DNA from: Gloeobacter morelensis MG652769
Lineage (GTDB): Bacteria > Cyanobacteriota > Cyanobacteriia > Gloeobacterales > Gloeobacteraceae
NCBI RefSeq assembly: GCF_021018745.1
Contig: NZ_CP063845.1
Coordinates: 2,356,001 to 2,420,000 of the forward strand
Reading direction: 5' to 3'
DNA: 64,000 nt
The stretch's first letter is position 1. Each line of letters starts with the position of its first letter. This document shows, piece by piece, positions 45,060 to 52,373 of the stretch. The notes under the pieces were generated by a model. The model was given only the letters and a program-made list of their open reading frames with translations, did no database searches and was not told the origin of the DNA. The position numbers were made by a program, and so were the translations under genes.

Positions 45060-47018
45060 TTAGGGAGTTTGCCGGTCCGTTTTGGGCTTGGGAAGCTCCC
45101 AAATTTTGTGCCAGGGATTCCAGAACATCACCAGATCCGCACAGGCGGGGCACTTGAGAAAGTAGCCCCGCTTGACTTTTTTGGAGGGTACCTTCGAGAG
45201 CAACCGGCGGCAATGGGGACAGGGGGTGCGCGAAGTCGCGGGTGCACCGGCTGTCGGTGGAGCGGCCGAACGCTTTGGAAATTCCGCCGCAATCGTCGCG
45301 CGGGCGCGCGCCACCGCCGGCACCAGGTAGTCCGCGTTCCAGCCGATCAAATATTTCTCCCAGGGCTCGCGGCTGGCGGCAATCGCGTCGAGGCCCGCCT
45401 CCATCCGGGCGGTAAAGGCGCTGTCCACCAGCTCCGGCAGCGTGCGCCCGAGCAGCGCGTCGGTGGCCAGCCCCAGCTCGGTGGGCACCAGCGCGCGGCC
45501 CTGCAGTGCGACGTAGGCGCGCTCTTTGAGGGTTTTGATGGTCGAAGCGTAGGTCGAAGGCCGCCCGACCCCTTTGCGTTCCATCAGCTGCACCAGCTTC
45601 GGCTCGCTGTAGCGCGGCGGCGGTTGGGTGCGCTTTTTTTCGTGGGCCGAGCGCAGCAGTTCCAGCCGCTGCCCGGCTTCGAGGGCGGGTAGGGCCAGGG
45701 CCGCCTCCAGGTCGTTCCAGTAGCGGGTGTAGCCCGCGAAGGCGACGGTCATGCCCAGAGCCTGCCAGTGCACCGGGCCGCAGCGGGTCAAAATCTTTGT
45801 CTTGGCCAGGCGGGCCGGGGCGCACTGCGAAGCCACCGCCCGCCGCCAGACAATGTCGTAAAGCCGCAGTTGCTCCTCGCTCAGGTGCGCTCGGATCGTG
45901 CGCGGCGTCAGGCTGACATCGGTGGGGCGGATCGCCTCGTGGGCCTGCTGGGCGCCTGCGCGGGAGCGGTGCGTGGCGCTGCGGGCGGGCAGATTGTCTG
46001 GATCGTGGGTCTGCAGGTAAGTGCGCGCCTGCTCGATAAATTCGGGGGCTACTTCGACGCTGTCGGTGCGCATGTAGGTGATGAGCCCCTTACGGCCGGT
46101 GGGCAGGTCGATGCCTTCGTAGAGTTGCTGGGCGATACCCATCGTGCGCTCGGGGTTGTAGCCGAGCAGTGCCCCGGCCGCCTGTTGGAGGGTGCTGGTG
46201 GTGAAGGGCGCGGGCGGATTCTTGGTGACGGTGCGCCGCTCGACGCCCTCGACGGCGTGGGGGTGGCTGCGCGCCAGGGCGACCAACCGGTCGGCCTCCG
46301 CTTCGCTCAAGACCCGGGTCGATTCGGCGGGGGGCGCTTCTTGGTTCGATTTGGCGTCGTCGGCCGCCTCGGTCGCCTCGGGCCTCTCCGGCACGTCCCC
46401 TTGGTAGTAAGCCCGCCAGCCGGGGGCGTACTCGACCCACACCGACCAGTAATCGACGGGCACAAAGGCAACGATCTCCCGCTCGCGCTCGCACACAAGG
46501 TGCAGCGTTGCACTCTGGACCCGGCCTGCGCTCTTGCCGCCGGTCGCATTCCACAGCAAAGGCGAAACTTTGTAGCCCACCAGCTTGTCGAGGCACTGCC
46601 GGGCGCGCTGGGCGCTCACCAGATCCAGATCCAGGCGGCCGGGCGATTGCAGGGCTGTGCGCACGGCCCCCTCGGTGATCTGGGTGCAGCGGATGCGCCG
46701 GGGGGATTTGAGGCGCAGCTCCCGCGCCAGGTGCCAGGCGATCGCTTCGCCTTCGCGGTCGGGATCGGTGGCCAGATAGACTTCCTGGGCCTTGGCCGCC
46801 GCCGCGCGCAGTTTCTTGAGGGTCGCCGCCCCCCGCTCGCCCCTGGGCACGTAGCGGCAGGTGACCGCCTCGGCACCGACGTCGAAACCAAGGTGATCGG
46901 CGCCGTCGTTGGCCAACTCCATGACATGACCCAAGGAAGCCTGCACGTCCCAGCCCGCGCCGAGGATCCCCTTAAAGGTCTTGATCTTGCCCGGACTCTC
47001 GCAAATTAGCAGCCGCAT
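45060..47018 (-). CDS. topA: DNA topoisomerase I (type IA), short form
   Basis: 652 residues from ATG 47018, where MRLLICESPGKIKTFKGILG gives the TOPRIM start; a longer frame to 47066 is not needed. LATDPDREGEAIAWHLAREL carries the metal-binding DxD. The catalytic Tyr315 lies in ITYMRTDSVEV. PSTYASTIKTLKERAYVALQ is the type IA cleavage-domain motif. One Cys4 zinc element (CPHCRRLLSKV, LKCPACADLV) ends the protein. It relaxes negative supercoils. Most cyanobacterial TopA proteins I know of are longer, with more C-terminal repeats, so this may be a second or divergent copy. Confidence 0.93.
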   Translation of the reverse strand: MRLLICESPGKIKTFKGILGAGWDVQASLGHVMELANDGADHLGFDVGAEAVTCRYVPRGERGAATLKKLRAAAAKAQEVYLATDPDREGEAIAWHLARELRLKSPRRIRCTQITEGAVRTALQSPGRLDLDLVSAQRARQCLDKLVGYKVSPLLWNATGGKSAGRVQSATLHLVCEREREIVAFVPVDYWSVWVEYAPGWRAYYQGDVPERPEATEAADDAKSNQEAPPAESTRVLSEAEADRLVALARSHPHAVEGVERRTVTKNPPAPFTTSTLQQAAGALLGYNPERTMGIAQQLYEGIDLPTGRKGLITYMRTDSVEVAPEFIEQARTYLQTHDPDNLPARSATHRSRAGAQQAHEAIRPTDVSLTPRTIRAHLSEEQLRLYDIVWRRAVASQCAPARLAKTKILTRCGPVHWQALGMTVAFAGYTRYWNDLEAALALPALEAGQRLELLRSAHEKKRTQPPPRYSEPKLVQLMERKGVGRPSTYASTIKTLKERAYVALQGRALVPTELGLATDALLGRTLPELVDSAFTARMEAGLDAIAASREPWEKYLIGWNADYLVPAVARARATIAAEFPKRSAAPPTAGAPATSRTPCPHCRRLLSKVPSKKVKRGYFLKCPACADLVMFWNPWHKIWELPKPKTDRQTP

Positions 47019-47079
47019 CACTTTCGGTGAACACCCGGCCTCAAGTCTAAGCCGCCGGAGGCCCACCGGTCCAGAGGGG

Positions 47080-48276
47080 CTACTTTTTCACCCGCGAGAA
47101 GCTCTCAAACCAGCCCCGCCGCCAAAAATAGATGACCAGACCCACAGCCACCGACAACATCAGCACCAGGCTGTAGGGATAGCCCCAGTACCATTCCAGC
47201 TCGGGCATATTCCAGGGGGATTTTTCAGGATCGAAGTTCATGCCGTAGACCCCGGCGATAAAGGTCAGCGGAATAAAAATAGCCGAGATCACCGTGAGGG
47301 TCTTCATCACCTCGTTCATCCGGTTGCTCACCGAGGACATGTAGATGTCCGTCAGGCTCGAAGCCAGTTCCCGGTAAGTCTCCACCATGTCGATGATCTG
47401 GATGGCGTGGTCGTAGCAGTCGCGCAGGTAGACGCGCACCTCCTCGCCGATCAGCGGGTTGGCATCGCGGATGAGGGCGTTGATCACATCGCGCTGGGGC
47501 CAGATGGCGCGCCGCAGCATCAGCAGTTCGCGCCGGAGCAGATAGATTCTCTCGAGGGTACCGCGGGTGGGGTTTTCCACCACCTCCGCTTCGAGTGCCT
47601 CAATGCGTTCGCCGAAGTCTTCGAGCACCGGGTAGAAGCCGTCGACGATCGCATCGAGCAGCGTGTAGGCCAGGTAGTCGGCGCGCTGATGGCAGATGAT
47701 GCCCTTGGCGGTGCGGATGCGCTCGCGCACGGGGCCGAAGACGTCGAATTTGGCTTCTTCCTGGACTGTGAGCAAATAGCTTTTACCCAAGATCAAACTC
47801 ACCTGCTCGCTGAAAAATGCTTCTGCCGTTTCGGAGGTGGGACAGACCATCCTGGCGATAATCAGCAGGTGGTCCTTGTATTCTTCCACCTTGGGGCGCT
47901 GGGGCACATTCACGATGTCTTCGAGCACCAGCGGATGCAGCCCAAACACCTTGCCCAGGCGGCGCAGGATGTCCTCGCTGCCGAAACCGCGCACGTCGAC
48001 CCACGAGACCGAGTGGTTGTCCAGGTAAGGCGTCAGTTCCTCAGGATGTTCCACCCTCCGGCCGGTGGATTGTTCGGCATCGTAATCGATCAGGTGGATC
48101 TCGGGCGGTGGGGCGTTTTTGTCGATGCTGAGCGTTCCCGGCATGGTACCGGGGTCGTCGTAATGGTAATCGACGTAGGACTCATCCTCCTCAGGATCCA
48201 TCGCTTCGCCGGCTTCCGGCTTCCGGTCTCGCATGGCAGCCGCACCGTAAAGAACACCACCCAATTCTAGAGGCAT
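47080..48276 (-). CDS. corA: CorA family magnesium/cobalt transporter
   Basis: 398 residues from ATG 48276; a TTG at 48318 with a weak ribosome site would add 14 residues. A soluble alpha/beta N-terminal domain (WVDVRGFGSEDILRRLGKVF, HPLVLEDIVNVPQRPKVEEY) is followed by two C-terminal membrane helices with the selectivity motif YGMNF between them. Pentamers pass Mg2+ through the inner membrane. It sits between the hybrid kinase and topA on the same strand. Confidence 0.95.
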   Translation of the reverse strand: MPLELGGVLYGAAAMRDRKPEAGEAMDPEEDESYVDYHYDDPGTMPGTLSIDKNAPPPEIHLIDYDAEQSTGRRVEHPEELTPYLDNHSVSWVDVRGFGSEDILRRLGKVFGLHPLVLEDIVNVPQRPKVEEYKDHLLIIARMVCPTSETAEAFFSEQVSLILGKSYLLTVQEEAKFDVFGPVRERIRTAKGIICHQRADYLAYTLLDAIVDGFYPVLEDFGERIEALEAEVVENPTRGTLERIYLLRRELLMLRRAIWPQRDVINALIRDANPLIGEEVRVYLRDCYDHAIQIIDMVETYRELASSLTDIYMSSVSNRMNEVMKTLTVISAIFIPLTFIAGVYGMNFDPEKSPWNMPELEWYWGYPYSLVLMLSVAVGLVIYFWRRGWFESFSRVKK

Positions 48277-48339
48277 GGGCTGGTCGGCACCCTGGCTGGG
48301 GGGCAAGGTCGGCTGCAAAAAGCACCTGCTGATCGCCGG

Positions 48340-50457
48340 TTAGCCGGTGGCCCGCTCAGTGGTGCCCACCGGCAGCGCCCAGCGCTCGATGGCGGCGGTC
48401 AACTGCTCGCGGCGCACCGGTTTAATTAAGCAGTCGTCCATGCCCGCCGCCAGACACAGCTCGTAGACCCCGGCGCTGGCGTTGGCGGTGATGCCCACGA
48501 TGGGCGTGCGCCGGGCCGGGTCTTCGCGCCTGCGGATCTCGGCGGTAGCCTGGAAGCCGTCCATAACCGGCATCTGGCAATCCATCAGCACCAGTGTGAA
48601 GGAGCGGCTCGCCAGCACCGTGAGGGCCTCCGCCCCGGTCTCCGCCACTTCCGCCTCGCAGCCAAGCCGCTCCAGGTGCCGCAGCAACACCTTCTGATTG
48701 ACGGTGTTATCTTCGACGATCAAAATCGGCCCGTACTGGGGCAGACGCACCGCCACGGGTGCGCTCGGCGGCGGTGGTTCGGCCAGGGCCGAAACTTTGA
48801 GCGGCACCACAAACCAGAACGTCGAACCTTCCTCCAGGCGGCTCTCGACGCCGATCTGCCCACCCATCAACTCGACAAGTTGCCTGGAGATGGCCAGTCC
48901 CAACCCCGTGCCGCCGTACTTGCGGGTGGTGGAAGTGTCGGCTTGAAAAAACGACTGGAACAGGCGGCTGGTCGTCTCGGCGCTCATGCCGATCCCGGTG
49001 TCGACGACTTCAAAGCGCAGACGCATCTCGTTTTCTTGCTCGGCCACTGGATGCACCCGGATAGCTATCTGGCCGCGAGAGGTAAATTTTAGAGAGTTGC
49101 CCACCAGGTTGGTCAGCACCTGCGCCAAGCGCACCGGATCGCCTTCGAGTTGCCCCGGCACTCTGGAGTCGATGAGCACCTGCAATTGCAGCTCTTTGCC
49201 GCGCAGCTGCTCGGCAAACATGGCCACCACCGAGTCGATCAACCGGGGCAACTCGAAGGGAACAACGTCGAGTTCCATCCGTCCTGCCTCGATTTTCGAA
49301 AAATCGAGAATGTTGTTAATCAAATTCAGCATCGTCTCGCCGCAGTAACTGATGATGGCGGTCAGTTCCCGCTGTTCAGCGCTCAGATGGCTCTCCAGCA
49401 GCAGATCGGTCATGCTGATGATTCCATGCATCGGCGTGCGCAACTCATGGCTTGCGGCGGCAAGAAAGTCGCTTTTGGCCCTGGCGGCGGCCTCCGCCCG
49501 CGCCTGGGCCGCCTGCAATTCGACTTCGATGCGCTGCCGCTCGCCAATTTCCGCCCGCAGTTTCTGGTTGAGCAATTTGTAGCGAACGGTCCGTTCCCTG
49601 ACGCGCTCCTCCAGTTCGGCATTCAACCTGGCCAGTTCCTCCTGGGTAACCCGGTGGGCCGCCACCTCGCGCAGCAACTGCTCCCCCATGCCCGCCCAAT
49701 CCGCCGGATTGAACGGCATCTCGAGGGCGGCGCGATCGTAGGTGATGTTCAGCACGGCCACCACCTCGCCTCGACAGTTGAACTGGGGCACCGCGAGACT
49801 GTAGCAGTAAAGCTTGTAACTTGCGTCCCCCACACTGTAGGCAAAACTGGTGCTGCCCGGCTCGCCGGTCTTGAACACCCTGCGGATCAACTGCTCCCAA
49901 TCGGCCATCTGGGCAAGGATCGACTCGGGAATGCCCATCTCCCACAAGCTCTTGCCCAGCACCCATTCTTTGGGCATTCCCGAAAAACGGGATGAAGCAG
50001 CGTTGACCATCAAAGCGCGCAGCTCGCTGTCTAGCAGCCCAATTTGATCGGGAGCCATCTCGATGTACTTTTCGTACATCAAGTTGCGCTGACGAATCTC
50101 GTCAAGACGCTCCTCCGCTTCCAACCGCTCGCCCACCAGCCCGGCGGCGTGCTCCAGTAGCGCGCTCTGTGCTGTACTCAGCAACCGCCCTTGCTCATCG
50201 GCAATCCAGAGGTTGCCCGCCAGCGTGCCGTTGCAGAAAATCGGCACCGCCGCTACGAATTTCCAGGGTGACCGGCTGAAGCACGCTTCTAGTTCAGCGC
50301 TGGACAGCACACTGAGTACCTGAACGGGAGGCTGCCTGCGAAACAGGGGATCAACAGCAAAGTTTTGACAATTATTAATACAAATCTGAGCAGTGGATAG
50401 GGCGAGGGCTTCGCGCACAAGTGCGGTTATCTTCCCAAGGAATTCTGCGGGCAGCAA
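48340..50457 (-). CDS. Hybrid sensor histidine kinase (GAF-like, PAS, HisKA, HATPase, REC)
   Basis: 705 residues, soluble. The N-terminal 120 residues look like a GAF domain ([20 protein letters not shown]); then PAS ([20 protein letters not shown]), a coiled coil, HisKA with His337 ([17 protein letters not shown]), HATPase ([19 protein letters not shown]) and a receiver with Asp626 ([14 protein letters not shown]). No membrane segment, so it reads a cytoplasmic signal. The start is 107 bases from the borosin methyltransferase start, divergently oriented. Its corA neighbour downstream is 63 bases away. Confidence 0.9.
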
Positions 50458-50564
50458 TGGCTCGAATCCGAAAATAAAAGTTTGGTATGGTAGAAATTTT
50501 CCACAAAAGTAGCTTACCGCTAAATCGATATTTCGAACTTAGAACCGCTGTCAAGGAGTCAAAA

Positions 50565-51368
50565 ATGTCAGGGTCTCTGATCGTGGTGGGTACCGGAATC
50601 CGGGCTGGGCACCTCTCCCAGGAAGCCGTCAGTGCTGTTCGGACAGCCGATGCTGTTGCTTACTGCATTGCCGAACCGCTTAGTCGCCTATTGGTCGATG
50701 AGCTTCGCAAAGAAGTTGCCAAGCCCGCCGCCGAGGATCTGCACCGTTTTTACGCTGACGGTAAGCCCAGAATGCAGACCTACCGCCAGATGGTAGCCCG
50801 AATCCTCGAACTGGTGCGCCTGGACTTGCAGGTGGCGGCGGTCTTTTACGGCCATCCGGGGGTTTTTGCCTATCCCTCCCACGAATCGATTCGCCAAGCC
50901 CGCGCGGAGGGCTACCCGGCCGAGATGCTGCCGGGAATTTCGGCAGTCGATTGTCTGTTTGCTGATCTGGGCGTAGACCCGGCCACGGCGGGCTGCCAGA
51001 TGCTGGAGGCTACCGATTTTTTGTTGCGCCGCCGTCACCTTGACACAGCCTGTGGCGTGGTGCTGTGGCAAATCGGTTGCGTCGGTCATGGGGATTATCA
51101 GGGCAGCGGATACGATCTGCGCCATGTGCCAATGCTGGTGGAGGCTTTGCTGGCGTTCTATCCGCCGGAACACGAAGTGGTCGTCTACCAGGCGGCGCAC
51201 TTTGCCATGTGCGATCCGACAATTGAATACGTTGCCATTGCTGAGATGTTCAGGGCCGGCATCACCGCCGTCTCGACGCTATACATTCCCCCACTGTTGG
51301 TGCCTGCAATCGATTCACAAGTGCTTAAAAAATTCGATATTGCGACATTTCGGGGAACCGAAGGCTAG
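50565..51368 (+). CDS. Borosin-type peptide backbone alpha-N-methyltransferase
   Basis: 267 residues; ATG 50565 chosen because GGAG lies about 9 bases upstream and the conserved SLIVVGTGIRAGHLSQEAV follows, dropping 26 unconserved residues. Tetrapyrrole-methylase fold with SAM-site motifs VVGTGI (7-12), YGHPGVFAYPSH (95-106) and LPGISAVDCLFADLGVDP. The segment YADGKPRMQTYRQM carries Tyr63, Arg69 and Tyr73 at the positions of the catalytic Tyr/Arg/Tyr of borosin enzymes (OphMA, SonM); ordinary cobalamin-type methylases lack these. Unlike fungal OphMA, no peptide is fused at the C-terminus; a candidate precursor follows 53 bases later. Predicted to methylate backbone amide nitrogens of that peptide using SAM. 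Confidence 0.88.
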   Translation: MSGSLIVVGTGIRAGHLSQEAVSAVRTADAVAYCIAEPLSRLLVDELRKEVAKPAAEDLHRFYADGKPRMQTYRQMVARILELVRLDLQVAAVFYGHPGVFAYPSHESIRQARAEGYPAEMLPGISAVDCLFADLGVDPATAGCQMLEATDFLLRRRHLDTACGVVLWQIGCVGHGDYQGSGYDLRHVPMLVEALLAFYPPEHEVVVYQAAHFAMCDPTIEYVAIAEMFRAGITAVSTLYIPPLLVPAIDSQVLKKFDIATFRGTEG

Positions 51369-51421
51369 AGAAACTGTCCACGGCAGTGTAATGATGTAGA
51401 AAAGTTGGAAGCAATTATCTT

Positions 51422-51658
51422 ATGAACGACAAAGCCAGATCTTTTCTTATCAGGCTGACGCAGGATCCCTTCCTGGCACAGCGCTTTCGTCAAGATCCCG
51501 AGCAGCGTCGGGCGATGCTGGAGGCCGCGGACTTCGATGCTTCCACGCGCGAGGCGCTCGAAAGCCGCGACGAGCACCGCATTGCCCAGATCTTGGGCAT
51601 AAGCAGTCTGCCCGCTTTTATGATCGTCGCCATCATCGTTCCCAACGGCCCCTTCTAG
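51422..51658 (+). CDS. Split-borosin precursor peptide candidate
   Basis: 78 residues, ATG 51422. Residues 1-58 form a helical leader (KARSFLIRLTQDPFLAQRFR, PEQRRAMLEAADFDASTREA, RDEHRIAQILG) of the kind that docks the methyltransferase in split borosins (LigA-subunit-like helical domain). Residues 61-78 (SSLPAFMIVAIIVPNGPF) are a hydrophobic core with a beta-branched run at 67-73 and a Gly/Pro end, resembling borosin cores. Which amides are methylated, and whether a protease releases the core, cannot be read. It lies 53 bases after the methyltransferase and 22 before rpiA. Confidence 0.82.
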   Translation: MNDKARSFLIRLTQDPFLAQRFRQDPEQRRAMLEAADFDASTREALESRDEHRIAQILGISSLPAFMIVAIIVPNGPF

Positions 51659-51680: not shown

Positions 51681-52373
51681 GTGGATCTGAATACCCTCAA
51701 GCAAACGGCGGCCCGTCGCGCCGTCGAAGATGTCGAGGACGGCATGGTGGTCGGGCTGGGCACCGGCTCGACCGCCGCTTTTGCGGTGAGCGCCCTCGCC
51801 GAGCGGGTACGTCTGGGGCTGCGGGTGGTGGGGATCCCCACATCGGAGCGCACCGCCCGGCAGGCCGAGGCCGAGGGTATTGGCCTGGGGACGCTGGCGG
51901 AGTACCCCAGGGTCGATCTCACCATCGATGGGGCGGACGAGGTGGCCCTGGGGGAGCTGGCCCTTATCAAGGGCCTGGGCGGTGCTCTGTTGCGCGAAAA
52001 GATTGTCGCTGCCGCGAGCGAGAGGCTGATTATCATCGTCGATGCCACCAAGCTGGTCGAACGGCTGGGTAGCCACGGCCCGCTACCGGTGGAGGTGGCG
52101 CCGTTTGGCTGGCAGGCGACCGCCCGCGCCCTGGAGCGGCTCGGCGGGCAGGCGAATCTGCGAGCCCAGGAAGGCCAGGCATTTCTCACCGACGGCGGCC
52201 ACTACATCCTTGACTGTCGTTTTGGGCCGATCGCCCGGCCGGCCGAACTCGAAGCGGCCATCGACCGCATCCCGGGGGTGGTGGAAAGCGGTCTGTTTGT
52301 CGGCATGGCAAGCGCGGTGATCGTAGCCGACGAGGGGGGTATCGAAGTGCTCACACCTTCTGCAGCGCCTTGA
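51681..52373 (+). CDS. rpiA: Ribose-5-phosphate isomerase A
   Basis: 230 residues from GTG 51681. [78 protein letters not shown] and [11 protein letters not shown] are RpiA motifs, including the catalytic Asp and Glu/Lys region. It interconverts ribose and ribulose 5-phosphate in the pentose phosphate and Calvin cycles. It starts 22 bases after the borosin precursor, perhaps by read-through, and its 3' end overlaps the convergent peroxiredoxin gene by 23 bases. Confidence 0.96.

Follow-up and report, generated by a model that had tools for sequence, protein, structure and literature searches.

Fungal borosins are bioactive cyclic peptides that are secreted, and OphMA and dbOphMA are fused systems of this kind. 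In split borosins the precursor is a protein of its own, as in the type IV pair SonM/SonA of Shewanella oneidensis (PMC8429565; PDB 7LTC, 9CH7), where L63 and I65 of SonA are the methylated residues, mutants of SonM Y58, R67, Y71 and Y93 have been assayed, and the borosin-binding domain has been reported to be homologous to the OphMA-type clasp (PMC8429565). The enzyme mechanism of split borosins is solved, and their final product and role were not known as of 2021 (PMC8429565). Further borosin types, V to X, were defined by Cho et al. and Imani et al., as cited in PMC11285071.

The pair described here lies in a window of 64,000 nucleotides (the whole stretch of DNA analysed) from Gloeobacter morelensis MG652769, on a contig of 4,921,229 bp in a genome totalling 5.10 Mb. 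The Gloeobacter lineage is among the earliest-branching cyanobacteria, a phylum in which type IV split borosins are rare (present in 4 of the 292 genomes sampled). The pair is a further type IV split borosin, a known class, conserved in Gloeobacterales. The more interesting lead is functional, namely the linkage of the borosin pair to a cytosolic kinase; without a protease or exporter and tied to a sensor kinase, the Gloeobacter pair offers a small system for testing the role of split borosins.

Locus layout

The sequence-only reading had placed the enzyme and precursor frames exactly where we find them (Table 1), and its count of 53 bases from the enzyme stop to the precursor ATG is correct, as is its report of YADGKPRMQTY and YGHPGVFAYPSH in the enzyme. 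The enzyme gene starts with an ATG preceded by AAGGAGT, and the separately encoded precursor adjoins it, which is the split arrangement. The intergenic region on the kinase side, conserved in its three-genome alignment, is a probable divergent promoter region; no match to the sigma-70 consensus occurs inside these 107 bp, and the matches of a promoter and terminator scan were not above chance. On the far side rpiA is probably co-transcribed with the pair in Gloeobacter; as a component of the system it was ruled out, being unlinked both in G003, a Gloeobacter genome without the pair, and in the more distant Gloeobacterales genome G004.

Table 1. Features of the borosin locus (window coordinates).
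Feature	Position	Strand	Description and basis
Methyltransferase gene	50565..51368	+	Split-borosin alpha-N-methyltransferase by comparison, 267 aa, tetrapyrrole-methylase fold; phmmer, AF2/Foldseek, tree, residue match
Borosin precursor peptide gene	51422..51658	+	78 aa; leader profile, dN/dS, A2 profile match to SonA
Leader / borosin-binding domain	51422..51595	+	Residues 1-58, five predicted helices; AF2, VIA-align
Linker and hydrophobic core	51596..51655	+	Residues 59-78, GISSLPAFMIVAIIVPNGPF; placed relative to the SonA core
Codons M67-I68-V69	51620..51628	+	Predicted first N-methylation sites M67 and V69, inferred from the SonA alignment
Hybrid histidine kinase	48340..50457	-	Divergent; GAF-like/PAS_4-HisKA-HATPase_c-REC; Pfam
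Shared intergenic region, 107 bp	50458..50564		Between kinase and methyltransferase starts; alignment of three genomes
rpiA, ribose-5-phosphate isomerase A	51681..52373	+	Pfam PF06026; 22 bases 3' of precursor

The genes topA and corA (45060-48318) adjoin the kinase both in the window and in the Gloeobacter-type genome G002 (compared with loci L010 and L011). Neither was found in the 20 kb covered around the pair in the Gloeobacter-type genome G001, which means that close relatives differ by rearrangement of this region.

Identity of the enzyme

By sequence comparison and structural model, the 267-residue enzyme is a borosin alpha-N-methyltransferase. A phmmer search of the PDB returned dbOphMA (8.5e-60), OphMA (3e-56) and SonM (2.4e-45) with no other match of weight, and the same three proteins head the Foldseek matches of the AF2 model (pLDDT 92). 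Identity is 44% to dbOphMA (alignment A1), whose methyltransferase domain is homologous, and 38% to SonM by structural alignment. Residues Y63, R69, Y73 and Y95 correspond to the assayed SonM residues Y58, R67, Y71 and Y93, and across 45 relatives Y73 and Y95 never vary, while Y63 and R69 are almost as constant. A tree of 86 rows places the Gloeobacterales enzymes on a branch to themselves within the borosin radiation, separate from the Oscillatoria-type cyanobacterial clade.

The fold is shared with tetrapyrrole methylases, and Pfam assigns the enzyme to TP_methylase (2.9e-20), with weak NCBIfam matches to cobI/cbiL; on these grounds it might be a cobalamin or sirohaem methylase beside an unrelated helical protein. 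This is highly improbable. The NCBIfam matches lie far under the curated cut-offs (cobI_cbiL, 24 bits vs 163), the OphMA and SonM matches are vastly stronger and the fold agrees best with OphMA, dbOphMA and SonM, a long branch separates the borosins from a precorrin methylase and from the paralogue that this genome encodes, and the small frame matches the borosin leader profile. A cobalamin or sirohaem identity was dismissed on the PDB matches, the tree and the sub-cut-off NCBIfam scores. The sequence-only reading had proposed a borosin enzyme and named placement in the cobalamin/sirohaem branch as its refutation; tested on this point, the enzyme groups with OphMA and SonM in both profile search and tree.

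The precursor and its leader family

The 78-residue frame is a real gene and not a chance open reading frame. G001 and G002 carry orthologues at the corresponding position (94% and 79% identity), at dN/dS of 0.15-0.24 (about 0.2), which indicates purifying selection, and the IVPNGPF tail is kept in three genomes. A relative with 42-44% identity occurs in G004, on a contig whose opening bases duplicate the end of the enzyme gene of G004.

Taken alone, the precursor has no phmmer match in the PDB and a single weak Foldseek match, SonA (E 8), while a Gloeobacterales-only precursor profile ranks SonA first, weakly (E 0.09); the leader assignment therefore leans on an intermediate family. This family consists of 57 frames near 80 related enzymes, the best 80 of at least 550 loci. 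A profile of its non-Gloeobacterales members singles out 51422-51658 as the sole significant frame among the 589 of the window (E 3.5e-14), a test that is not fully independent because the collection was seeded with the Gloeobacterales precursors. The independent anchor is the match of the family profile (A2) to the SonA chains, with E-values of 3.8e-14 to 1.6e-13. The family profile also matches the dbOphMA/OphMA clasp (7e-4 to 3e-3), in line with the homology reported between clasp and borosin-binding domain (PMC8429565).

The AF2 model of the precursor (mean pLDDT 80) has five helices over residues 2-58, in agreement with the helical first 58 residues of the sequence-only reading, and an extra short helix at residues 65-71 in the core region. 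In a VIA-align comparison of four chains only, it superimposed on SonA (9ch7_D) with Z 6.9 and an rmsd of 2.1 Å over 57 residues, and the LigA-like part of gallate dioxygenase scored 6.8; since helical bundles match easily, the value is support and not proof. Profiles and models together support membership of the leader in the SonA borosin-binding-domain family and, with the enzyme, the identity of both parts as split borosin enzyme and precursor. The proposal of a split borosin has thus stood, with the enzyme beside OphMA/SonM and the leader in the SonA family by profile and fold.

The likeness to SonM/SonA extends to adjacent genes for a separate enzyme (263 and 267 aa) and a precursor of 70-80 aa, to the active-site residues, the five-helix leader fold and a short hydrophobic core. 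The Gloeobacter pair differs in a side-clamp loop three residues shorter than that of SonM by sequence alignment, a three-residue insertion after position 27 of the precursor, a different core (FMIVAIIVPNGPF) and its neighbours, a divergent histidine kinase and rpiA. From OphMA and dbOphMA, whose clasp matches the leader profile, it differs in that leader and core form a separate protein.

Nif11-type leader peptides show a weak similarity to the leader. Two Nif11 models score 18.1 bits against a cut-off of 23.8 and 19.1 against 32.3, and hhalign gave 61-78% for leader versus Nif11 in a rough test, with a Nif11 set gathered from a self-written consensus seed. No Nif11 RiPP enzymes occur near the Gloeobacter pair, and the family's match of LigA/SonA type is stronger. 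A Nif11 RiPP reading was rejected, the similarity being sub-threshold only. As a side observation, N-terminal models of Nif11, LigA, Os1348-type NHLP and IniB are weakly similar to the leader family, a hint of a single ancient superfamily of helical leaders.

Core and proposed methylation

The hydrophobic core follows the leader C-terminally and is in register with the methylated positions of SonA: L63 and I65 align to M67 and V69, gap-free after the leader insertion. Both positions fall within residues 65-73, the target region suggested before, which the alignment makes a fitting candidate. Among the loci read, this core is common only to other Gloeobacter-type genomes, so the product could be new, as had been supposed.

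By analogy with SonM/SonA, the helical leader (residues 1-58) would dock on the methyltransferase dimer and the hydrophobic C-terminal core would enter the SAM pocket, where backbone N-methylation may proceed from N to C, most likely at M67 first and then at V69, with further methylation possible within I71-V73. More tentatively, and as a proposal of its own, the product may work with the divergent cytosolic hybrid histidine kinase, being either sensed or controlled by it, and would then not be an exported antibiotic. We are highly confident that this account as a whole, a type IV split borosin with leader docking and core N-methylation at sites predicted from SonM/SonA, and with the weaker kinase partnership, is the best explanation of the locus.

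The kinase neighbour

The kinase is a hybrid histidine kinase of 705 aa with a TTG start, reading away from the pair across the intergenic gap. Pfam finds a GAF-like and PAS_4 sensor, HisKA, HATPase_c and REC, and no DNA-binding output domain although REC is present; no membrane segment is predicted (top 19-residue hydropathy 1.45). With 33-59 HisKA matches per genome, adjacency in a single genome is unremarkable, and the retained linkage is the point. A full-length kinase homologue stands beside the methyltransferase in four genomes, including G001, G002 and, at 44-46% identity, G004, a small number of genomes in which simple regulation could explain the linkage. Among open-access papers on borosins, a single review also mentions histidine kinases, and no link to Gloeobacter was found; an earlier report of signalling neighbours is possible in the papers that defined types V-X.

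The linkage might be plain synteny, with no functional tie between pair and kinase, since other nearby genes are likewise conserved in the closest genomes and HisKA domains are so common. We consider this unlikely: in G004 the kinase stays with the pair although rpiA sits elsewhere, and G003 has no full-length kinase homologue, its best match covering the catalytic half only, with the sensor half not found. The recurrence of signalling neighbours across unrelated lineages, described below, speaks against it as well.

The sequence-only reading had seen no linked protease, macrocyclase or transporter; this holds as far as the genes around the pair were checked, with no dedicated protease or exporter seen beside it and a CorA-type Mg2+ channel as the nearest transporter, but the reading overlooked the conserved linked kinase.

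Signalling neighbours of other borosin loci

The neighbourhood survey covered the best 80 of at least 550 borosin loci. When the neighbours of these 80 enzymes were clustered, signalling proteins formed a single large family, and by the filter applied a member of it lies directly beside enzyme and precursor in 36 of the 80 loci, a count that includes the Oscillatoria-type clade although TPR genes and the precursor intervene there before the signalling protein. Most of the 36 (32) are on the strand of the enzyme, and their loci span 11 lineage groups drawn from the tree. Such a neighbour is absent from all 16 loci in the OphMA-like branch and present at 36 of the 64 others (Fisher 2.5e-5), a comparison among related loci with crude frame calls and with groups drawn after the data had been seen. 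Signalling frames are concentrated near the enzyme, with 29 of 159 within 1 kb and 11 of 273 at 4-8 kb (p 3e-6). The domains found in the 36 scanned neighbours were Pkinase (16), AAA_16 (14), HATPase_c (10), TPR_12 (10), HisKA (9), cyclase (3) and SpoIIE (3). At the same position, four Chloroflexota loci and L105 encode large proteins of other kinds, regulator-like as judged from sequence only.

The distribution bears on an alternative for a genuine split borosin, in which a protease encoded elsewhere cleaves the product, which is then secreted to serve as antibiotic, metal binder or signal, and the only part of the kinase is to regulate the pair's expression through the intergenic region between them. 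The divergent gene order and conserved 107 bp would suit such regulation, fungal borosins provide the precedent of secretion, and unlinked proteases are common for RiPPs, so that we give this possibility somewhat less than an even chance. Against it, the kinase carries REC without a DNA-binding output, and the lack of an exporter or peptidase beside the pair is repeated among the relatives: of the 56 further neighbours on the same strand, 13 are TPR proteins, a recurrent type, but no peptidase or transporter recurs, each appearing at most once among the matches listed.

With signalling proteins at about half of the loci examined and none in the OphMA-like branch, the purpose of the peptide becomes a concrete hypothesis, and we infer, in a form that can be tested, that split-borosin peptides act inside the cell with the adjacent signalling proteins. 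A wider extension, which we regard as doubtful, would make bacterial split borosins as a class intracellular signalling parts, in which a leader-bound and N-methylated peptide, which might escape both cleavage and export altogether, serves as ligand or switch for an adjacent kinase, cyclase or AAA-TPR protein, the Gloeobacter pair being one example.

Several loci deserve mention in their own right. The Oscillatoria-, Microcoleus- and Moorena-type split borosins (L041, L044, L052, L057, L065, L067, L068, L074, L078, L091) resemble the Gloeobacter locus in being cyanobacterial split pairs with a signalling protein nearby, yet they belong to another enzyme branch, and their precursors, leaders with an unusual, DPxPDPLPDPDP-rich C-terminal region, lie 2-3.5 kb 3' of the enzyme behind TPR genes. 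These leaders precede very large proteins; that of L041, scanned alone, has Ser/Thr kinase, AAA, GAF and SpoIIE domains. In Acidobacteriota, Ignavibacteria and Proteobacteria nine pairs (L060, L064, L085, L096, L063, L094, L095, L108, L112) adjoin proteins of the signalling cluster, and the neighbours in L060, L063 and L095, scanned alone, proved to be histidine kinases whose sensors are of TPR or beta-propeller (Reg_prop) type. Borosin methyltransferases also occur in archaeal assemblies (L054, L080, L090, L097; Thermoplasmatota, Methanomassiliicoccus), where MAG contamination is possible, and some of these loci carry leader-type frames together with signalling-type neighbours.
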